Positions 27,828 to 59,703 of a stretch of 64,000 nt of DNA are shown here, one piece after another; position 1 is the stretch's first letter, and each line of letters starts with the position of its first letter. Below the pieces are notes generated by a model. That model was not told the DNA's origin, did not search any database, and saw only the letters and a list, made by a program, of their open reading frames with translations. The DNA is from Methanohalophilus halophilus (GTDB lineage Archaea; Halobacteriota; Methanosarcinia; Methanosarcinales; Methanosarcinaceae), in NCBI RefSeq assembly GCF_001889405.1, contig NZ_CP017921.1, positions 1,254,057 to 1,318,056 of the forward strand, written 5' to 3'. The position numbers were made by a program, and so were the translations under genes.

Positions 27828-29519
27828 TTAGAGCAGCCTCTCCAGATCATTTTCTACAGTTGTGTTCTTGCTGATGTTGAAATTTTCAACCAGCACGTTC
27901 AACACATTCGGGGAAACAAACGCCGGCAATCTCGGTCCCAGTACAATGTCCTTGACACCAAGACTTAGCAGGGCAAGCAATACAAGGACTGCCTTTTGCT
28001 CATACCATGCGATATTGTAGGAAACGGGCAGGTCGTTTATATCATCCAGTTCAAAGGCTTCAGCCAGCTTTTGGGCAATGACAACCAGTGAGTAGGAATC
28101 ATTACACTGGCCCGCATCCAGTACTCTGGGGATACCGCCGATGTCTCCAAGGTCCAGTTTATTATACCGATACTTGGCACAACCTGCTGTAAGAATTACA
28201 GCATCCTGTGGCAGTTGTTTTGCAAATTCAGTGTAGTATTCCCTGTCGTGCTGTCTCCCGTCACAACCCGCCATTACAATAAACCTGGAGATCTGGCCGG
28301 CTTTAACTGCATCCACGATCTTGTCGGCAACTGAAAGGGCGGCATTGTGGGCAAATCCGGCAGGTATTGCGCCATTTTCCAGTTGTTCGGGTGGTCTGGA
28401 TTGTTTTGCCATTTCAATGATTTCAGAGAAGTCTTTTGTCCCGCCTTCTTTCTCTTCGATATGCTTGAGCCCTTCAAATCCGACCATTGCTGTTGTGAAT
28501 ACCCGGTCAGAATAGGAATCTTTTGGAGGTACAAGACAGTTTGTGGTCATAAGCACCGGGCCATTGAATTTTTCAAACTCGGTTTTCTGTTGCCACCATG
28601 ATCCACCATAGTTGCCCACCAGATGTTCATACTTCTTAAATTCTGGATAGGCATTGGCAGGCAGCATCTCACCATGGGTATATACATCAACACCGGTGCC
28701 TTCAGTCTGCTTCAGGAGCTGGTCCATATCCTTTAGATCATGCCCGCTGATAAGGATACCCGGATTGTTCCCGGTTCCAATATTGATCTCTGTGGGTTCC
28801 GGATGGCCATAGGTTGTAGTGTTAGCTTCATCCAGCATTGCCATTGTCTTGACACCGAAACTTCCACATTCCAGCACCAGGCCTGTGAGGTCATCTACGG
28901 AAAGGGAGTCATCAAGAGTGGCTACCAGTGCCCTGTCAATAAAGACTGCAATATCTTTATCTTGGTGACCAAGCACACTGGCATGGTATGCATACGCAGC
29001 CATTCCCTTTAGACCGTATACAAGTAATTCTCTCAGGGATCTGATATCTTCATCTTCAGTTGCAAGGATACTGACTGATTCAGCGTTTCCAAGTTCATCG
29101 GGGTTGATCTTTGCAGCCTGTGGAAGATCGCTCAGGTCCACTCCATGTGCCTGAAGTTCGGATTTAATTTGTTCCCTTTTATCATATGCATCCTGGATCC
29201 ACTTCTCGAAATCAGTAGCACTGAAGTTTACATTGGTTACTGTCGAGAAAAGGGCTTCTACCATGAAATGGGAATCAATATAATCTTCTGGTTCCCCTTC
29301 CTTTGATTGTTCGTTTCCTTTCAGGGCATTTATTAATCGGGTTTTCAGGCCCGGATTTTCATGTACTGTGTCTCTTGCTTTCTGGTTGACAGCGGCAAGA
29401 CCTTTAAGCATATAAATAAGCTGATCCTGCAGATCTGCAACTTCATTCGATTTCCCGCATGCTCCACCCTTTGTACAGGCTTCTCCTTTTGCTGTTTCTT
29501 CGCATTGGTAACAAAACAT
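27828..29519 (-). CDS. hcp: Hybrid cluster protein (hydroxylamine reductase / NO-stress enzyme)
   Basis: 563 residues from the ATG at 29519, supported by GGAGGAAAAAT directly before it; a start 16 codons earlier lacks a site. The N-terminal ligands are C-x2-C-x8-C-x5-C ([19 protein letters not shown]), the 4Fe-4S form of class I. Hybrid-cluster ligand regions are visible: [54 protein letters not shown]. Hcp reduces hydroxylamine and probably nitric oxide in nitrosative or oxidative stress. Downstream is a cupin gene; divergent upstream is an HxlR regulator with repeated operator-like sites in between. A second copy is at 36185. Confidence 0.93.
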
Positions 29520-29567
29520 ATTTTTCCTCCACACTTTATTGGTATTTTTGACATTTGTCTCTATCAA

Positions 29568-32823: not shown

Positions 32824-33915
32824 ATGCAACTCAGTAATACAATACCTGAAAAATGTACAACAATGGGCCGATTCTTGTACACTAATTGTAACACTCTTTC
32901 AGAAAACGTTATCGAAAGACAATATGCCCGACAACCCGAATTGGCTGCAAAGTATGGCAAAAAAGGAAAGAAACTGTCCTTGCAGGATTGTAGATATCAC
33001 ATATTCTACCTGGGAGAGGCTATCTGTATTCATAGTAAACCTCTATTCCTGGATTACATGCAATGGGTCAAAGTTTTGATGCATAACCTAGGAATTCCGG
33101 AAAAATACCTGATCACAAACTTGCAGATTATAAAAGAAATTGTTTCCGAAAACATTGCTGAAAACCAGTTTACAAAGGAAGAAGCAGATATTATACATGA
33201 ATATCTCGACGCTGGATTAATGGTATTTGAAAAAAAAGAAAATGATACAGTATCTTATATTGATCGAAATGCATATTATGGTAAATTAGCAGGCAAATAT
33301 ATTGACCTGCTTATTGAAGGAAAAAAGAATGCTGCATCCGATCTAATTTTCAGTGCTCTTGAAAAAGGAGCGACTATAGAAGATATCTATCTTAATATAT
33401 TCCAGCCTTCACAATATGAAGTGGGAAGACTCTGGCAAACCAACGGGATAAGCGTTGCCAAAGAACACTATATTACTGCTTCAACTCAACACATTATGTC
33501 CCGGCTTTATCCAGAAATGATTTCACAGGGTAATAAGGATAGGACCGTTGTGGCTACCTGCATAGGGAATGAATTACACGAATTGGGCGTGAGAATGGTT
33601 GCAGACTTTTTTGAGATGGATGGCTGGAATAGTTATTACCTGGGAGCAAATACGCCTGCAGAAAGTATCATCCAGACAGTTAATGATACAAATGCACAGG
33701 TTGTTATTGTTTCTGCTACCCTTTCAATCAATGTTCATAAGCTAAAAGCATTGGTTCAGGAATTAAGGAATTCAAAAGACCTGGAAAATACAACCATCAT
33801 GGTAGGTGGGCATCCATTCAATATCGATCCCGAATTATGGAAAAAGGTAGGAGCGGATCTCAATGCTCCGGATGCAAAACAGTCCCTGGCACTTGCAAAT
33901 GAATTATTTGAATAA
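32824..33915 (+). CDS. B12-binding sensor protein with CarH-type Wx9EH motif
   Basis: 363 residues. About 1-150 is a helical domain I do not recognise (YARQPELAAKYGKKGKKLS, LFLDYMQWVKVLM). About 155-235 is a helical cobalamin cap (B12-binding-2-like) holding W204-x9-E214-H215. About 240-363 is a Rossmann B12 domain with ELHELG (ExHxxG, the lower-axial-histidine motif; methyltransferase corrinoid proteins normally have DxHxxG), then GANTPAESII and IMVGGHPF. Wx9EH is the hallmark of the light-sensing adenosylcobalamin domains of CarH/LitR. There is no MerR DNA-binding domain, so output is likely by protein contact, perhaps with the kinase two genes downstream. A corrinoid methyl carrier is less likely. 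Confidence 0.8.
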   Translation: MQLSNTIPEKCTTMGRFLYTNCNTLSENVIERQYARQPELAAKYGKKGKKLSLQDCRYHIFYLGEAICIHSKPLFLDYMQWVKVLMHNLGIPEKYLITNLQIIKEIVSENIAENQFTKEEADIIHEYLDAGLMVFEKKENDTVSYIDRNAYYGKLAGKYIDLLIEGKKNAASDLIFSALEKGATIEDIYLNIFQPSQYEVGRLWQTNGISVAKEHYITASTQHIMSRLYPEMISQGNKDRTVVATCIGNELHELGVRMVADFFEMDGWNSYYLGANTPAESIIQTVNDTNAQVVIVSATLSINVHKLKALVQELRNSKDLENTTIMVGGHPFNIDPELWKKVGADLNAPDAKQSLALANELFE

Positions 33916-34516: not shown

Positions 34517-35617
34517 ATGGATGACAACGAAATCTACAACGAAATTTCGCAGTTGAATAATGAGTTAGTAAATACTCAACGTGATCTTGTAAAGACAAAC
34601 AAAAGTCTGGAATATCAAATAGAGAGATTCAAAGTCACGCTCCAAAATATTGCAGATCCCGTTATTGTGACAGATGAGAATTTTAATATCACATTGGTTA
34701 ATCAAAAAACACTCTCTTTTATCGGTAGTAAACGGGACATCATCAACAAACCAATAGATGAAGTGTTGCAATTTAAAGAGATAACATCAAATTCTGAAAA
34801 TGTTGTATTTACAGTACCACAGCAGAAAAATATATTTCCATTACAGAATAAAGAAATATTACTGGTTCTGAAAGAGCAGGAACCGTTTTTTGTAGAACTC
34901 AGTATTTCTGCAATTGAGGAGAAACCCGGAAAAACAAATGGGTATGTAGTGGTAATTCATTCTATTGCTGAAAGAAAAAAAATAGAGATGCAACAAACTG
35001 AGATCAAAGATTTTTTGCAGGTAATCAATCGAATATTGCGCCATGATATATTGAATCACCTCAACGTGATTCAGATGGCAACATACCTGTCAGAAAAAAA
35101 AGGTGATTTTACTTATCTGGGCAAAGTCATGAAATCTGTAGAAGCCAGTATAAAATTGGTCAATGACATGAAAAATCTGGAGTATACGGTATCCAAAGGG
35201 GGTGAACTTGCAGTATATGAAGCTCGTGAAATAATAGAAGAAGTAAGTTCCTATTACCCTATCCAGTTCAATATTAGTGGTAATGGGAAGATTGTAGCTG
35301 ATGAGGCCTTCCGTTCTGCAATTGACAATCTGATTCGAAACGCCATTAACCACGGCAAAACAGAAAAAATGGATATCGTGATATCTCCTAACAAAGACTA
35401 TTGTGAGATCAGTGTTAGGGATTACGGGACGGGGATGGAAAAAGATATCCTTGACAAAATATTTGATGAAAATTTCAAGGCTGGAAGTACCGGGAATACT
35501 GGAATTGGTTTGCACATTGTAAAAAAAGTTATTGAAAGGTACGGGGGTAATATCAGGGTGGAAAGTGAATTAGGAGAAGGAACGACATTTACACTAAAGG
35601 TGCCATCACAGAACTAA
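34517..35617 (+). CDS. PAS sensor histidine kinase
   Basis: 366 residues, soluble. A short coiled coil (about 1-35) leads to one PAS domain (about 36-160, LQNIADPVIVTDENFNITLV), then the phosphoacceptor box RILRHDILNHLNVI (about 173-186) of the methanogen/haloarchaeal type, and the ATPase domain with N box NLIRNAINHGK, G1 DYGTGMEKD and G2 GNTGIGLHIVKK. No receiver or membrane segment. It is 40 bases after the helical protein and belongs with the B12-binding sensor; no response regulator gene is nearby, as is often the case in methanogens. Confidence 0.9.
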   Translation: MDDNEIYNEISQLNNELVNTQRDLVKTNKSLEYQIERFKVTLQNIADPVIVTDENFNITLVNQKTLSFIGSKRDIINKPIDEVLQFKEITSNSENVVFTVPQQKNIFPLQNKEILLVLKEQEPFFVELSISAIEEKPGKTNGYVVVIHSIAERKKIEMQQTEIKDFLQVINRILRHDILNHLNVIQMATYLSEKKGDFTYLGKVMKSVEASIKLVNDMKNLEYTVSKGGELAVYEAREIIEEVSSYYPIQFNISGNGKIVADEAFRSAIDNLIRNAINHGKTEKMDIVISPNKDYCEISVRDYGTGMEKDILDKIFDENFKAGSTGNTGIGLHIVKKVIERYGGNIRVESELGEGTTFTLKVPSQN

Positions 35618-36184: not shown

Positions 36185-37804
36185 ATGTTCTGCTATCAGT
36201 GTGAAGAAACAATGAACGGGGAAGGTTGCACTAAGAGTGGTATATGTGGTAAGAAGGGGGAAGTTGCAGACCTTCAGGATGATCTCATCTATGTGCTTAA
36301 AAGCATTTCATTCTACAACCAGAAAGCAAGAAAGGCAGGCATCTCTGAGACAAGCACTGATGATTTTATGTTCGATGCGTTGTTCTCAACCATAACAAAT
36401 ACTGATTTCAGAGCAACCGGTATTCAGGAACGTATTGATAGGGGTTTCGAGCTTCAGAAGGATATCAAACAGAAACTTCTGGATAACAATGCACTTGACG
36501 AGAACGATCTGCCCGGGATAGCAACTGTGACCCCGCAAAATCTCAAGGACAGAAATACCGGCATACTTGCAACAGAGAACGAAGATATCCGGTCATTAAG
36601 AGAATTACTGGTATATGGTATCAAAGGAATTGCAGCATATGCACATCATGCTATGATGCTTGGGCATACCAATAAAAAAGTTAATTCGTTTATAGAAGAA
36701 GGCCTTGTGGCAACCACGGATGACAGCCTAACTGAAAAGAAACTTATCTCTCTGGTCCTGAGATGTGGAGAAAAGGGTTTTGATGTAATGGCAGCACTTG
36801 ACATGGCAAATACCACTACATTCGGGCATCCGGAATCGACTCAGGTCAATATCGGAACCGGGAACAATCCGGGTATCCTTATCAGCGGGCATGACCTGAA
36901 TGACCTGAAACAGTTGTTGGATCAGACAGAAGGCACCGGTATCGATGTATATACCCACGGTGAGATGCTGCCTGCCAATGCATATCCAGAATTCAAGAAG
37001 TATGAACATCTGGTGGGCAACTATGGTGGATCATGGTGGCAACAGAAGCAGGAATTCGAAAGTTTCAACGGGCCAATATTACTAACAAGTAACTGTATAG
37101 TTCCTCCAAAGAAGACCTACATTGACAGGTTATACACTACAGGCTCTGTAGGTTATGATGGTGCCACACACATAGTACCTAAAGATGGTAAGAAAGACTT
37201 CTCAGGAATCATCGAGCAGGCAAAGGCCTGTGAACCTCCGGTGCAACTGGAAGAAGGTACCATCACGGGCGGTTTTGCCTACAACTCTGTATTGTCTAAT
37301 GCAGACAAGATTGTTGATGCTGTCAAAGCCGGCAGGATAAAGAAATTCATTGTCATGGCAGGGTGTGACGGACGTCGCAAAGAACGACAGTACTACACAG
37401 ATTTTGCAGAGGCATTGCCTGAAGACACCGTCATACTTACCGCCGGATGTGCAAAATATCGCTACAATAAACTTAACCTGGGGGACATTGATGGAATTCC
37501 CAGAGTACTGGATGCAGGACAGTGCAATGATTCATTTTCACTGGTAATCATTGCACAGGGCCTTATGGCCAGACTTGGATTTGAAGATGTCAACGACGCA
37601 CCGATCTCGTACAATATCGCATGGTATGAGCAAAAGGCAGTCCTTGTATTGCTTGCCCTCCTGAGGCTTGGAATAAAGGATATCACCCTTGGACCGAGGC
37701 TCCCGGCATTTGTTTCCCCGAATGTGTTGAAAGTGTTGGTGGAGAAGTTCAACATAACACCGAATACCACTGTAGAAGAGGACATGGGGAGACTCTTAAA
37801 GTAA
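36185..37804 (+). CDS. hcp: Hybrid cluster protein, second copy
   Basis: 539 residues, AAAGGTGAC before the ATG. N-terminal ligands C-x2-C-x8-C-x5-C ([19 protein letters not shown]) and the same hybrid-cluster regions as the copy at 27828 ([55 protein letters not shown]). It is about 25 residues shorter, mainly after residue 50. The GATACT operator-like sites of the first copy are absent upstream, so the two are probably regulated differently. Role in nitrosative or oxidative stress from family knowledge. Confidence 0.93.
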
Positions 37805-53229: not shown

Positions 53230-53430
53230 ATGAAAATCGTACATGCTCAAACTGTACTGACGGACGAGCAACTCGAGGCACTGAAGAAGAAAAGTAATGA
53301 ATCTTCCACCAAAGATGCGCTCAGTATTGCAGTTCAACATTACCTTGAGTGTGAGTACACCGACATGGATGATGAAATGTGGACTCGCAAGCTCGAAAAG
53401 GTCGTACAGAAAAAGAACCAGAAATACTGA
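53230..53430 (+). CDS. DUF5371-like small protein
   Basis: 66 residues: MKIVHAQTVLTDEQLEALKK, then a helix-rich segment (SSTKDALSIAVQHYLECEY) that recalls ribbon-helix-helix regulators, and a basic end. It is separated by 14 bases from a pilin gene on the same strand and shares its promoter (TTTATATAT at about 53206). The family is known from methanogens with no clear role; a DNA-binding regulator of the pilin is a possible but unproved reading. Confidence 0.6.
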   Translation: MKIVHAQTVLTDEQLEALKKKSNESSTKDALSIAVQHYLECEYTDMDDEMWTRKLEKVVQKKNQKY

Positions 53431-53444
53431 AAAGGAGAGTTATA

Positions 53445-53930
53445 ATGAGGATTCCTGAAATGTTTAAAAAAGACGATGCAGTATCCCCGGTCATCGGTGT
53501 CATTCTGATGGTCGCCATTACTGTCATCCTAGCAGCGGTTATAGCAGCGTTCGTATTCGGACTTGGCAGTCCTGAGACAGCACCACAGGCAAGTGTAAAG
53601 GGTAGTTCTGTAGACATGAATGACCAGAATGCCATCAAAATTGAGCACCAAGGTGGTGAAGTAATCACTTTGACTGATGCAAATACCAAAGTTACCTTGA
53701 ATGGTGGCACTGTCAATCTTTCAAAGTTAACTACCACTGACCTTGAAGCATTTGAAGCAGGTGAAACACTTTACATCTACAATGAAACTGATAGTATCCT
53801 TTACCTTGGAACTTCCACAGATGCAGCTACTGCAAATTCATCTGCTGTCAGCACTGGAGAAACCGGTGAAGTTAAGTTTATTGATGTCGGTAGCCAGCAA
53901 CTCATTGGCGACTTCGATGTAAGGTTCTAA
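53445..53930 (+). CDS. Archaeal type IV pilin
   Basis: 161 residues from the ATG at 53445, preceded by AAAGGAGAGT. MRIPEMFKKDDAVSPVIGVI gives the positively charged leader, DAVSPVIG junction and hydrophobic helix of archaeal Pilin_N (DUF1628) proteins, followed by a short beta-rich domain ending LIGDFDVRF. Cleavage by a prepilin peptidase would occur just before AVSP or nearby. Likely a major adhesion pilin or single-subunit surface protein; distinct from the five-gene set at 17-20 kb. Confidence 0.85.
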   Translation: MRIPEMFKKDDAVSPVIGVILMVAITVILAAVIAAFVFGLGSPETAPQASVKGSSVDMNDQNAIKIEHQGGEVITLTDANTKVTLNGGTVNLSKLTTTDLEAFEAGETLYIYNETDSILYLGTSTDAATANSSAVSTGETGEVKFIDVGSQQLIGDFDVRF

Positions 53931-54137: not shown

Positions 54138-54782
54138 ATGGCAGGGATACAAAATATTGATAAAGATCTAAAAGGTGATCTGGTACGCAAATCCATACAT
54201 ATACTGTCCGGTTTGCTTTACATACCGCTTATTTATATTTCAGGGCCTTTTGCGTTTGAAGTTCTGGTTTTACTTGCATTGATTTATGCTTGTGTGATCG
54301 TGTCCCTTCTAGTCCTCCACAGAATGCATTACCGGCCGGTTCGTGAAATGATTAAATGCTGGGGGCGGCGAAATGAAAATTACATCCCTCTAAAACCAAC
54401 ACTTTTGTTGCACACCGGTATTGGCATATCGTTATTGCTTTTTCCCGCCCACATCGTTTATGCTTCAATAGCTATAACTGCTATGGGGGACGGGATTGCA
54501 ACAATTTCGGGCAAAAAGATCGGTAAACATAAATTACCCTATTCCAAAAGTAAATCTGTCGAAGGAACAATTGCAGGATTCGCAGCCGCCTTTTTAGGAG
54601 CAGCCCTTTTTGTCCCTTCCCTGCAGGCAATTGTAGCAAGTGCAGGAAGTATGTTGCTGGAAAGTTTAATAGGGAGGGATATAAAAACGAATTCCCCGAT
54701 AAAAAAGGCATTCAACCTGCTAAAAAATGACAATTTGTTGTTGCCTGTCTTTTCAGGCTTCCTGATGATGCTAACAGGTTGA
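54138..54782 (+). CDS. Dolichol/polyprenol kinase-like CTP-dependent membrane protein
   Basis: 214 residues with about six membrane helices. LVRKSIHILSGLLYIP, MGDGIATISGKKIGKHKLPY and SKSVEGTIAGFAAA match the SEC59/DGK1/VTE5 group of CTP-dependent lipid kinases. It would phosphorylate a polyprenol or similar lipid alcohol for glycan or isoprenoid salvage. Phosphatidate cytidylyltransferase is the nearest alternative by motif. Faces the MtmB-like gene tail to tail, 69 bases apart. Confidence 0.75.
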   Translation: MAGIQNIDKDLKGDLVRKSIHILSGLLYIPLIYISGPFAFEVLVLLALIYACVIVSLLVLHRMHYRPVREMIKCWGRRNENYIPLKPTLLLHTGIGISLLLFPAHIVYASIAITAMGDGIATISGKKIGKHKLPYSKSKSVEGTIAGFAAAFLGAALFVPSLQAIVASAGSMLLESLIGRDIKTNSPIKKAFNLLKNDNLLLPVFSGFLMMLTG

Positions 54783-54851
54783 ATGGTATTTATTTCAAAT
54801 TGACATCAATGGCCAAAAAAAGAATTGATGAATTATATTCATCTGTCTTTT

Positions 54852-56225
54852 TTAAAACAGACCTCTATAGTATTCATCAATTTCCCCAATGATTTCAGAA
54901 TACATATTCATGTATTCCTCAGTTGGTTTCATTTCGTATTTCGAATTTACATCATAACATGATTCGAAATCTTTTCCTTGCGGGGCATCTGAAAGCCGGT
55001 CTACGTATTTAGAATAGAGCATTTCAATAATTTCATTTGCCTCTGCCAGGTCCAGATTCAGGGCCATCTTGCTCACCTCGCCCATGAATCTTGATTCCAG
55101 GCCAGTTGAATGATCAACTTTTTCTCCTCTACCACCAAGAGGTCCGATCAACATTTCTCTGCCGCAAACCGTATCGCTTATTGCCTGAGCTGCGGTTTCA
55201 TAAAACATCATATCAGTACAGCACCCTGCAATGTTGTGGTAATATTTTGCTGTAGAATGTTGCATATTACGTGAAACCGCGAGGGAGGAAATATTTGAAG
55301 CCCACAATATTTCTTTTGTAGATGAAGATTTTGTAGCCGAATCAATTGCTCCGCAGGCATGTATGCTTGCACTTGTAACCAGCCGGGATTGTATTGTTTC
55401 TGCAACATCAATAATTGCCAGTGCTTCAGGTGAATCTATAGCATCTTTGCCCAGAACGGGACACTGGCCACTTATGAAATTATTCCCGTGCTCCTGATGG
55501 AATATTGATTTATGAAAAGTTTCAAAATCGGTTTTCAGGTTACCAGATTGGTATACCTCATGAATATCATTTTTTGAATATAACTCATTTGAAGATACGA
55601 CCATATGTGCCTGTGAGGTATTTGGTGTTGCCGGACCTACAAGGGTCAACCCCTCCCTGCCGGCGATTTTTGTAGCCAGTCTTTCAAGTCTTGCTTCTTC
55701 TAAAGCTACAAACATTTCCTCTGGAGTATTGGTTCTTATAGGACCGTCATTGATTGTTTGCATGGATCCCGGATATATTCCCTGGACTATGGGCTCAATT
55801 GCAGAACTGATATGAATATTCAGGAAATTTTTTTCAGAAACCTTTCCACCCATTGGCCCTCCTATAATTACAGGGGGTTTGCAATCCATTTCTGTCCTGC
55901 TAACAACATTTATTTTTTCCTTGAATCTCCCAATGTCCACGGCATTGGGCGTACCAAGAGACTTCAATATTTCATCGTTATTTACCTGGATAGTTCTGCC
56001 TGTATCAGTACAGTATATTCCTACATTTGTCAGAAGTTCGATAGCGGCTGAAAAAACAGCATCTGCCATGTCAAGTTCGTATGGTATGAATTCTTCGCCG
56101 TCATTTATTATATCATAATCAGCAGCCAGTTCGGTGGATAATTTTAAAACATCTTCATTATGGGTATTTTCACTTTTTTCTTCACCTGAAAAAGAGTTTC
56201 TTAGATATTTATATATGTCTGACAT
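54852..56225 (-). CDS. MtmB-family methyltransferase paralogue lacking pyrrolysine
   Basis: 457 residues, same length as monomethylamine methyltransferase MtmB (458) and alignable along its whole length: VGIYCTDTGR (MtmB CGIYCTDTHR), GREGLTLVGPATPNTSQAH (GRPGMGV-Pyl-GPETSLSAQG), AQAISDTVCGREML, HSTGLESRFMGEVSKMA, DFESCYDVN and PTEEYMNMY. At the site of Pyl202 the gene has GTA (Val196, bases 55638-55640). There is no in-frame TAG and it ends in TAA. MtmB moves a methyl group from methylamine to corrinoid protein MtmC, the Pyl imine holding the amine; without Pyl the substrate must differ or activity be lost. It is divergent from a betaine-type BCCT transporter; no corrinoid protein gene is adjacent. 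Confidence 0.85.
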   Translation of the reverse strand: MSDIYKYLRNSFSGEEKSENTHNEDVLKLSTELAADYDIINDGEEFIPYELDMADAVFSAAIELLTNVGIYCTDTGRTIQVNNDEILKSLGTPNAVDIGRFKEKINVVSRTEMDCKPPVIIGGPMGGKVSEKNFLNIHISSAIEPIVQGIYPGSMQTINDGPIRTNTPEEMFVALEEARLERLATKIAGREGLTLVGPATPNTSQAHMVVSSNELYSKNDIHEVYQSGNLKTDFETFHKSIFHQEHGNNFISGQCPVLGKDAIDSPEALAIIDVAETIQSRLVTSASIHACGAIDSATKSSSTKEILWASNISSLAVSRNMQHSTAKYYHNIAGCCTDMMFYETAAQAISDTVCGREMLIGPLGGRGEKVDHSTGLESRFMGEVSKMALNLDLAEANEIIEMLYSKYVDRLSDAPQGKDFESCYDVNSKYEMKPTEEYMNMYSEIIGEIDEYYRGLF

Positions 56226-56639
56226 GTAGTATACCTCCTATATTTCTATTACTTATTCCCTTATATCAATAACTGGTAATCTACAAACAACATTCAATAT
56301 CTTACTAAACAAAATTTATTGTTTATAAAATTATAATATAGATGTTTTTACACATAAATGTTTAATAACTATTGTTTTATATTGATATACTTTAAATAAA
56401 AATAGGACGATTTTGAATTTTTTCATTTAAAGACTCTATTTCTAAAAGTTACATATATAATGAAAGGATACTTTATAGTTTAATTAAGAAGTAAAATCAA
56501 AGTTGTTTTTGTCACATTGGGTATAAAATAATGTAACTTAAACACTTTTTATTATTGAAGTTAAACAGAATCTTCACGACTAAATATATAAAATTTCAAA
56601 TTTGTTCATGGTTCTTATAATTATCAAAGGAGGCATGTA
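56226..56639. other. 414-base AT-rich divergent promoter region
   Basis: Lies between the MtmB-like gene (minus) and the BCCT gene (plus). TAAATATATAAA at 56581-56592 is a good TATA box for the transporter, giving a short leader with AAAGGAGG (56626-56633) seven bases before the ATG. On the minus strand TTTATAAA-like runs near 56320-56345 could serve the methyltransferase. No gene seen. The region is strongly AT-rich and long for this window, suggesting regulated expression of both genes. Confidence 0.5.
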
Positions 56640-58244
56640 ATGAGAAAAATGCAAAAAGGACTCACAGAATTTTCAGACACTTTAAAGACACCGACACTAT
56701 TGGTATCGTTATTTTTATCTTTTGCATTTGTTTTAGCCGGAACGGTTTTTCCGGAGCGTTTCGGAGTTTATATGGATTTCACCTTTAATTGGATGGTCGG
56801 AAATCTTGGTTGGTCTTTCTTATTTGGTGGCAGTATTTTTTTATTGCTTATTGTATATTTGATGCTAAGTCCACTTGGGGATATAAAATTGGGCGGGGAC
56901 TATGAAAAACCTGCTTATTCCAATCTTTCATGGTTTGCCATGCTTTTCAGTTGCGGAATGGGGATTGGCCTACTTTTCTGGGGTGTTTCAGAACCGATAT
57001 GGCATTATATGTGGCCGCTTTATGAACAACCCAATACATCTGAATCCCTGCATGCAGCCATGAGATATTCTTTCTTCCACTGGGGCTTCCACCCGTGGGC
57101 AATATATTCTGTGGTTGCGGGCTCATTAGCATATTTTTCCTACAGGAAAGGCCTGCCGATGCTATTGAGTTCTACACTGGAACCTATCCTGGGAAGAGAG
57201 GGCATTGATAAAAAGTGGGGTATTGCTGTTAATACCATTGGTGTCCTTGCAACTCTCTTTGGTATTGCGACAACTCTTGGTTTAGGTGTTATGCAGATAG
57301 GCGCCGGGCTTGAGGAATTATTCGGTTATTCCAGCGGACCTACGTTATGGGTACTTATAATTACTGTTGTTACGATTCTTGCGATAATGTCCACAGCATC
57401 CGGTATTGACCGGGGTATAAAATGGTTGAGTCAGATTAATCTGGGCGTGGCAGCTCTTTTAATGATTCTGATATTCATTCTTGGACCAACGCTATTTACC
57501 CTTGAGTTATTCACTCATTCAGTAGGAGGCTATTTGCAAAACTTGCTCCAGATGTCCTTTGGAACAGATCCTGCAGGGGTCGGAGCTGAAGGCTGGGGAG
57601 ATTCATGGACTATTTTCTATTGGGCATGGTGGATTGCCTGGGCTCCATTTGTTGGGTCATTCATTGCCAGGGTTTCAAGGGGCAGGACAATCAGAAGCTT
57701 TGTTGTAGGTGTAATGCTTGCTCCTACAGTTGTCAGTATGGTATGGTTCAGTATCTTTGGAGGATCTGCTCTTTTCATCGAGCATTTCGGAGCCGGTGGA
57801 ATTGCTGAGGCTGTTGAAGTTGATTCTGCACTGGGCTTTTTCAGTATGCTTAGTTTTTTCCCTTTCTCTGACATCCTTATTGCAGTTGCAATGTTCTCAG
57901 TAGCGATCTTTTTCATAACTTCGTCTGACTCGGGTACTTATGTCATAGGAATGCTGACCTCTAAAGGCAATCCCAATCCTCCGCTTCCACTGAGGATTAT
58001 CTGGGGTAGTCTTGAAGGAGCTGTTGCAGCAGTTCTTCTGCTTGCAGGTGGTCTGGGTGCCCTCCAGACAGCTTCAGTAGTCGGTGGATTTCCCTTCATG
58101 ATAGTTATGCTTTTGATGCTCTATTGCTTATTGAAAGCATTGTTTATGGAACTGCAGGAAGAGTCCCTGCCGTTAGAGAGGGCTAAATTAAGGGCAACAA
58201 TTAATGAAATTAAAATACGGGAAGATCAAAAGGATAAAGAGTGA
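56640..58244 (+). CDS. BCCT-family betaine/choline-type transporter
   Basis: 534 residues, twelve membrane helices. The sodium-coupling motif GMGIGLLFWGVSEPIWHY, the TM4 box HWGFHPWAIY (equivalent to Trp189, Trp194 and Tyr197 of BetP) and the TM8 signature FYWAWWIAWAPFVGSF are all intact, predicting Na+-coupled uptake of a trimethylammonium compound such as glycine betaine. The long acidic or basic regulatory tails of BetP are absent except for a short charged C-terminus. It has a strong ribosome site and is divergent from the pyrrolysine-free MtmB paralogue. It may import an osmoprotectant, or a methylated substrate for that enzyme. Confidence 0.92.
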   Translation: MRKMQKGLTEFSDTLKTPTLLVSLFLSFAFVLAGTVFPERFGVYMDFTFNWMVGNLGWSFLFGGSIFLLLIVYLMLSPLGDIKLGGDYEKPAYSNLSWFAMLFSCGMGIGLLFWGVSEPIWHYMWPLYEQPNTSESLHAAMRYSFFHWGFHPWAIYSVVAGSLAYFSYRKGLPMLLSSTLEPILGREGIDKKWGIAVNTIGVLATLFGIATTLGLGVMQIGAGLEELFGYSSGPTLWVLIITVVTILAIMSTASGIDRGIKWLSQINLGVAALLMILIFILGPTLFTLELFTHSVGGYLQNLLQMSFGTDPAGVGAEGWGDSWTIFYWAWWIAWAPFVGSFIARVSRGRTIRSFVVGVMLAPTVVSMVWFSIFGGSALFIEHFGAGGIAEAVEVDSALGFFSMLSFFPFSDILIAVAMFSVAIFFITSSDSGTYVIGMLTSKGNPNPPLPLRIIWGSLEGAVAAVLLLAGGLGALQTASVVGGFPFMIVMLLMLYCLLKALFMELQEESLPLERAKLRATINEIKIREDQKDKE

Positions 58245-58458: not shown

Positions 58459-59703
58459 TCACTCAAGACTGCAATCTGATATCTCGTTAGCTCTTTTTTC
58501 CTGCATCAATTTTCGCACTTCTGGCAGGTCGGATGTCTGGCCCAGTACACACATAAGTTTTACAAGGGCAACTTCCGGCAACATGTCCTCGGCCTCGATT
58601 GCTCCGGCTTTGAGCATATCCGTGCCGGTGTCATAGACACGGTCACAGACACGTCCGTGCAGACACTGGGATGCGATCACTATCGGTATGTTTGCTTCTG
58701 TTGCACGCTTGATTTCAGGGACCCAGTCGGTGGATACATGGCCCAGCCCGGTTCCTTCGATTACAATGCCCTTGTAGCCTGCATCGATATAATGACCCAG
58801 GATTTCAGCTTTTGCGCCGGGTGTGAACTTTACAATAGCACATTCTGGCTCGATTTTCTCCTTGAGGGCCAGTTCTGTCTCTCCGCGTGCGGTATATTCT
58901 GATTCTGTGGTAATCTCGCCTGTGGCATAATCCACAAAACCAATCTGGCGGGAATTGATGGACTGGAAAGCATCCCTGCGTGAGGTGTGCATCTTCCTGA
59001 CTCTGGTAGCATAATGGATGGCACATCGATCATCGGAACTGCTCTCATGCATGACTGTGCAGATTTCTGCAATATCACTGACAGCAACCTTCGTTGCACA
59101 GATTGCATTCATCACATTGTCACTGCTTGGCCTGTCTGCACTGCGCTGGGAACCTACAAAAACAACGGGAACCGGCGTGTCAAGCATGAATGCCAGGGCT
59201 GCTGCGGAATACATCATAGTATCCGTACCATGAGCAATCACTATGCCGTCTGCTCCGTTACTAATTTCTTCATATACGGCCCGTGCAAGTTCGGTCCAGA
59301 TATGTGGCTTCATGTTCTCGGACAGGATATTCGTAACAACCCGTCCTCTTATATTGGCAATATCATCAAGTTCAGGGATTGTCCGGACAATATCATCTGC
59401 AGAGCACTGTGAGCTCACAGCACCGCTACGGTAATCGATCTTACTGGCAATGGTACCTCCGGTGGAAATGAAAACAACATTTTTAAGTCCTTTATTTTTG
59501 GTAACCTTGCCTTGCTTTTCGGGCTTTTGAATTTCCTTTTTTTGCTCCAGGAAAGTGATCTGTGCACCATCCGGCTCAATTCCTACATTGTATCCACTGA
59601 CCATTTTCAGCACAATATGGCCGGTGACACTGGGCATAACAACTCCTTCGTAGGCAGCTCCGCCCTTCTCGACCCTTATCCTATCTCCTTCCTTGTAATC
59701 CAT
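58459..59703 (-). CDS. gatD: Glu-tRNA(Gln) amidotransferase subunit D
   Basis: 414 residues. An N-terminal about 85-residue beta-barrel ([20 protein letters not shown]) precedes an asparaginase-type domain with [35 protein letters not shown] and [14 protein letters not shown]. Archaeal GatD frees ammonia from glutamine for GatE, which amidates Glu-tRNA(Gln). gatE is not in the window. The N-terminal extension separates it from a free L-asparaginase. Confidence 0.93.

Follow-up and report, generated by a model that had tools for sequence, protein, structure and literature searches.

An intact pyrrolysine-free MtmB-family protein encoded beside a BCCT transporter in Methanohalophilus halophilus, and its possible role in quaternary amine demethylation

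Overview

Methanohalophilus halophilus DSM 3094T encodes an intact member of the MtmB methyltransferase family in which a valine occupies the position of pyrrolysine (Pyl), and whose gene is divergent from that of a BCCT (betaine/carnitine/choline) transporter. From sequence comparisons we favor, with modest confidence, the interpretation that this is a working corrinoid-dependent methyltransferase that would act without Pyl on an amine, most likely a quaternary one, imported by the BCCT carrier, and that an orphan corrinoid protein encoded elsewhere in the genome would be its methyl acceptor. The two genes lie in a 64,000-nucleotide stretch, referred to here as the window, which corresponds to positions 1254057-1318056 of the single-contig genome (2,022,959 bp); unless otherwise indicated, all coordinates are those of the window.

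An initial annotation of this region had proposed a repurposed Pyl-free MtmB-family enzyme, and stated that no characterized equivalent was known in that family. The first part is right in outline, supported both by purifying selection on an intact gene and by the conserved BCCT neighbor, but the second, the central claim to novelty, is now outdated, having been overtaken by the report on 19 March 2026 of MtqB from Methanococcoides methylutens Q3c, a Pyl-free MtmB homologue with demethylating activity toward tetramethylammonium and choline, weak activity toward monomethylamine, and none toward TMA or glycine betaine (PMC13044021). The Pyl-free MtmB principle is thus already known from a distant cousin of the protein described here, with a first function assigned to any of the Pyl-free MtmB relatives only in 2026; the remaining Pyl-free MtmB proteins are described as having no known function (PMC13044021), and we found no reported function in the literature for the clade to which the M. 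halophilus protein belongs. What is new is that this clade is widespread and separate, that its pocket is rebuilt, that the link to a transporter is conserved, and that a corrinoid protein can be predicted as partner.

An MtmB-family gene without a pyrrolysine codon

The gene occupies positions 54852-56225 on the minus strand, begins with an ATG, and encodes a 457-residue protein. The product scores 470.6 bits against the Pfam MtmB model PF05369 (gathering cut-off 25), with positions 2-448 of the 450 in the profile covered, has no other Pfam match, and matches M. barkeri MtmB1 (1l2q/1tv2) in a phmmer comparison at 1e-68; the GREGLTLVGPAT motif and the C-terminal GKDFESCYDV...PTEEYM are both found. 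NCBIfam provides no name for this protein, for its clade relative, or for the MtqB-like protein. We rejected the identification of the gene as an MtgB type (MttB superfamily, COG5598) because Pfam gives MtmB alone, with no match to PF06253; the sole PF06253 gene in the M. halophilus genome is a TAG-bearing mttB. The genome also contains two further mtmB genes, both of which have a single in-frame TAG.

At the position corresponding to Pyl202 of MtmB the gene has a GTA codon (55638-55640, minus strand), encoding Val196. There is no in-frame TAG anywhere in the open reading frame, and a Pyl codon elsewhere in the gene is thus rejected, in agreement with the alignments. The initial description of a full-length MtmB-type protein, with GTA at the Pyl site and with its flanking and C-terminal motifs in place, is borne out by the sequence itself, by the PF05369 match, and by the alignments. 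The orthologues in M. portucalensis (97% identity) and M. mahii (94%) also have a valine, so that its occurrence at this site is far beyond chance.

We aligned 110 MtmB family members, and find a TAG-encoded residue at position 202 in 53 of them; in these 53, Glu259 and Gln333 are invariant wherever they are present. Both residues reportedly act beside Pyl in the MtmB structure of Hao et al. (2002). In the M. halophilus protein Glu259 is replaced by Gly253 and Gln333 by Tyr328, while Glu229 is kept as Glu223; position 259 is mostly Gly and position 333 mostly Tyr among the Pyl-free members of the alignment, and two of the three checked residues beside Pyl (Glu259 and Gln333) are replaced across the whole of the Pyl-free clade described below. 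Position 202 is a Met in most of this clade and a Val, Ile, Leu, or Phe in the subclade to which the M. halophilus gene belongs, and the Trp that the clade has at position 335 is a His or an Arg in Methanohalophilus and in Methanolobus bombayensis. Because the pocket differs even from that of the remainder of the clade, the substrate may well be altered too.

An AlphaFold (AF2) model of the 457-residue protein (pLDDT 93) has the MtmB TIM-barrel fold, with a TM of 0.95 and 1.4 A against both MtmB 1tv2 and 1nth; the barrel is complete in the model, and Val196 is located in the barrel strand formed by residues 194-197. The partial loss of residues that handle Pyl and substrate could be taken to indicate an MtmB-like protein without catalytic function, such as a sensor or a regulator that binds corrinoid, and it would fit with this that the cognate corrinoid gene is not adjoining and that no growth phenotype is known. 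We consider this very unlikely, however, as Glu229 is kept and the full barrel is modeled at high confidence, purifying selection acts over the whole protein, and a same-strand corrinoid gene adjoins a clade member in M. bombayensis.

A widespread Pyl-free clade under purifying selection

Phylogenetic comparison of the MtmB family, in a tree of 50 rows for which the tool flagged long branches, places the gene in a separate Pyl-free clade and not as a single divergent copy. An eight-row subclade (100/100) holds the M. halophilus gene, and the clade as a whole joins 31 Methanosarcinaceae rows at 99/98 and 33 at 100/98. The Pyl-MtmB enzymes (100/100) and an MtqB-like group (100/100) both lie apart from it; the separateness of the three groups is not in doubt, but the branching order among them is uncertain. 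The monophyletic Pyl-free clade is found in 47 of the 112 Methanosarcinaceae genomes, with relatives at 54-97% identity to the M. halophilus protein, and is the common Pyl-free MtmB type in marine and halophilic members of the family. Identity to Pyl enzymes is 30-36%, the Pyl copies in the same genome being at about 31%.

We infer that three members of the MtqB-like group (L062-L064), together with L082 in the same tree group, represent MtqB, from the corrinoid gene directly upstream, the Methanococcoides and Methanosarcina members, the patchy distribution, and the position in the tree beside Pyl-MtmB, as in PMC13044021. With the MtqB-like group so assigned, orthology of the M. halophilus gene to MtqB is rejected on the grounds of its separate clade (both at 100%), the identity of about 30%, and the differences in the pocket.

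Two other observations concern related genes. Another Methanohalophilus genome contains a different, long-branch Pyl-free MtmB type (L092, G393:C2:384948-386267) beside mttB-like and corrinoid genes, and this groups with Methanosarcina proteins in the tree. In M. portucalensis the two mtmB genes of the Pyl type (G085:C1:747601 and C1:1672832) match over the C-terminal part only; scaffold gaps that have been reported in this assembly may be the reason.

Comparison with M. portucalensis FDF-1T (G085) and M. mahii SLPT (G012) gives dN/dS values of 0.056 and 0.094 respectively for the Pyl-free gene, 0.055 and 0.094 for the neighboring argH, and 0.042 and 0.051 for the BCCT gene. The change at the Pyl site, taken alone, might suggest a decaying duplicate of a Pyl enzyme from which the TAG codon has been lost, as the initial annotation had allowed, but we find this hardly credible and reject it: the gene shares only about 31% identity with the genome's own Pyl enzymes and belongs to a distinct, deep-branched clade represented in 47 of 112 genomes, its dN/dS is 0.06-0.09, and the frames are full-length in nearly all of its relatives. 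It is not, therefore, a lone and rapidly decaying copy, although Glu259 and Gln333 are replaced clade-wide.

A conserved divergent pair with a BCCT transporter

Across a divergent intergenic region of 414 bp (56226-56639, 21% G+C) lies the gene for a 534-residue BCCT transporter (56640-58244, plus strand; PF02028, 608 bits). The protein contains a GMGIG motif and the aromatic TM8 motif WWIAWAPF, and matches TIGR00842 above cut-off, with the specific betaine and choline models below cut-off. The same divergent pair is present in six genomes representing at least two genera, namely M. halophilus, M. portucalensis, M. mahii, M. bombayensis (L034), Methanolobus M17C (L036), and a Methanosarcinaceae MAG (L037), with 374-477 bp between the genes; across genera the enzymes are 70-75% identical and the BCCT proteins 81-92%. 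The outer neighbors of the pair differ between Methanohalophilus, M. bombayensis, and M17C together with the MAG. We looked for a shared operator in the intergenic region, and note that only a short block beside the mtmB-like start is conserved between genera, with nothing clearly palindromic by eye. BCCT orthologues are present at 73-98% identity in nine other genomes, and seven of the ten BCCT-bearing genomes (at least 73%) also hold the subclade of the M. halophilus gene. One of the BCCT frames, in Methanohalobium (G022:C2:127528-128979), has a single in-frame TAG, which could mean that the transporter contains Pyl or that the gene is broken.

The pair is part of a variable segment, the third gene of which (54138-54782, plus strand) codes for a small membrane protein with a weak match to CTP_transf_1 (Pfam E 4e-4, below cut-off) that is probably outside the enzyme system. 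Five other Methanohalophilus genomes have none of the three genes of 54138-58244 between a pilin-like gene (53379-53930) and gatD (58459-59703), and among the Methanohalophilus genomes examined, the three with the Pyl-free mtmB-like gene are the only ones to carry the 54138-54782 gene here.

Osmoprotection is a common role of BCCT carriers, and it could be argued that this one is an osmolyte importer and a chance neighbor, in which case the enzyme would demethylate, without Pyl, a different amine that might be primary, secondary, or tertiary. There are BCCT orthologues with no adjoining Pyl-free gene in Methanosalsum and Methanohalobium, the remaining members of the clade have other neighbors, such as mtbA in many Methanolobus (NF041608 above cut-off) and cdc6-like genes in Methanococcoides, and MtqB itself retains weak methylamine activity (PMC13044021). 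We nonetheless regard this explanation as rather unlikely, given that the divergent arrangement persists from one genus to another while the outer neighbors differ, and that in Methanohalophilus the segment is either there in full or missing altogether.

A candidate corrinoid partner

No B12-binding gene adjoins 54852-56225, and the nearest B12-binding gene within the window is about 20 kb away and encodes a sensor-like protein of 363 residues. This gene (32824-33915) is followed by a histidine-kinase-like gene (34517-35617), and its product looks like a corrinoid- or methyl-group sensor. The window also encodes, within 10 kb of sequence, two proteins of the hybrid-cluster (hydroxylamine reductase-like) type (27828-29567 and 36185-37804), recognized by eye from the translations.

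There are ten B12-binding genes in the M. halophilus genome, and one of them, an orphan MtqC-like corrinoid gene at C1:1977381-1978034 (L160:6382-7038), lies outside the window, 0.67 Mb from the mtmB-like gene. It is adjoined at its 3′ side by a DUF1638-type gene and by no methyltransferase gene, and the DxHxxG motif of its product is intact. The closest relative of this protein (58% identity) is encoded directly upstream, and on the same strand, of a member of the Pyl-free clade in M. bombayensis (L045), the next closest being MtqC-like proteins at 40-46%. An orthologue (at least 57%) is present in 10 of the 112 genomes, all ten of which have the Pyl-free clade (Fisher p 9e-5, uncorrected for kinship); 37 of the 47 clade-bearing genomes have no close relative of it. 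The corrinoid gene is unlinked to the Pyl-free mtmB-like gene in both Methanohalophilus and Methanococcoides. Within Methanohalophilus it is found in exactly the three species that have the Pyl-free gene, and in a four-gene tree of the genus, in which supports are modest (41-88), these three do not form a clade, M. portucalensis being placed with three species that lack both loci (support 88). Because the three species do not group, the two loci, which are unlinked, seem to have been acquired or lost jointly. The orphan MtqC-like protein is likely to be the partner of the Pyl-free enzyme.

Proposed function and substrate

In the reaction that we envisage, the BCCT carrier would import a small amine that is N-methylated and most likely quaternary. 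Pyl gives methylamine a positive charge, and a quaternary amine already carries one; with such a substrate the Pyl imine would thus not be needed, which could account for the rebuilding of the barrel center with Val196, Gly253, and Tyr328. The Pyl-free barrel would present the methyl group to the Co(I) of a corrinoid protein, with the enzyme handing one methyl to the orphan MtqC-like protein encoded at C1:1977381-1978034, and an MtbA-type enzyme would then carry it from the corrinoid to coenzyme M.

Growth reports bear on what the substrate might be. M. mahii holds all three components, the Pyl-free gene, the BCCT gene, and the orphan corrinoid gene, yet reportedly fails to grow on either choline or betaine (PMC3017947), which weakens the case for either choline or glycine betaine as a growth substrate; for M. 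portucalensis the reported growth substrates are methanol and methylamines only (PMC4928046). It is possible that the role is one of osmolyte turnover and not of growth, and turnover or co-metabolism would explain the negative growth tests on choline and betaine. A bolder proposal, about which we are doubtful, is that the clade constitutes a third functional class of MtmB, in which an amine of the osmolyte type (glycine betaine, dimethylglycine, or a different betaine, for instance) would be demethylated via a dedicated MtqC-like corrinoid protein in betaine-making halophiles, for turnover or co-metabolism, the substrates being neither MMA, as with Pyl, nor those of MtqB.

It is also conceivable, though not probable, that the enzyme is functionally a second MtqB, that is, a tetramethylammonium or choline methyltransferase despite its distance from MtqB. 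The two are of the same family and lack Pyl, the corrinoid protein predicted as partner resembles MtqC (40-46% identity to MtqC-like proteins), and Methanococcoides vulcani, which shows a clade member and no MtqB-like gene, uses choline and betaine according to the title of reference 46 in PMC4928046. However, the identity is about 30%, the clade is a different one, the Cys259-Met260 pair is missing, and choline does not support the growth of M. mahii (PMC3017947); moreover, M. vulcani may owe its use of choline to different enzymes, for instance Pyl-free relatives of MttB.

If the clade makes a further methylated amine available to methanogens, a direct osmolyte-to-methane route would be added, and there would be a second test case for the relation of Pyl and Pyl-free enzymes within one fold. 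With a predicted corrinoid partner and a transporter in hand, the system is directly testable.

Comparison with known systems

MtqB resembles the M. halophilus protein in being a Pyl-free member of the MtmB family from the same methanogen family, with a likely MtqC-like corrinoid partner in common. The MtqB-like group has the Cys259-Met260 pair, however, whereas the M. halophilus protein has Val196-Gly253-Tyr328 instead; and while mtqC is directly upstream in the MtqB system, the MtqC-like gene of M. halophilus is 0.67 Mb away and the neighbor is a BCCT gene. MtmB1 of M. barkeri (PDB 1l2q, 1nth, 1tv2) is homologous over its whole length and closely similar in structure (TM 0.95, 1.4 A), but is 31% identical and has Pyl202, Glu259, and Gln333 where the M. 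halophilus protein has Val, Gly, and Tyr; the Pyl-MtmB enzymes have mtmC in the same operon, in contrast to the Pyl-free gene, which has no adjoining mtmC. MtgB, the glycine betaine methyltransferase of the MttB superfamily (COG5598), is unrelated in sequence and similar in fold at the barrel level only (TM 0.5-0.57, about 10% identity), but it too lacks Pyl while being related to a methylamine enzyme that has it, and it takes a quaternary amine, as we propose the M. halophilus enzyme may do.
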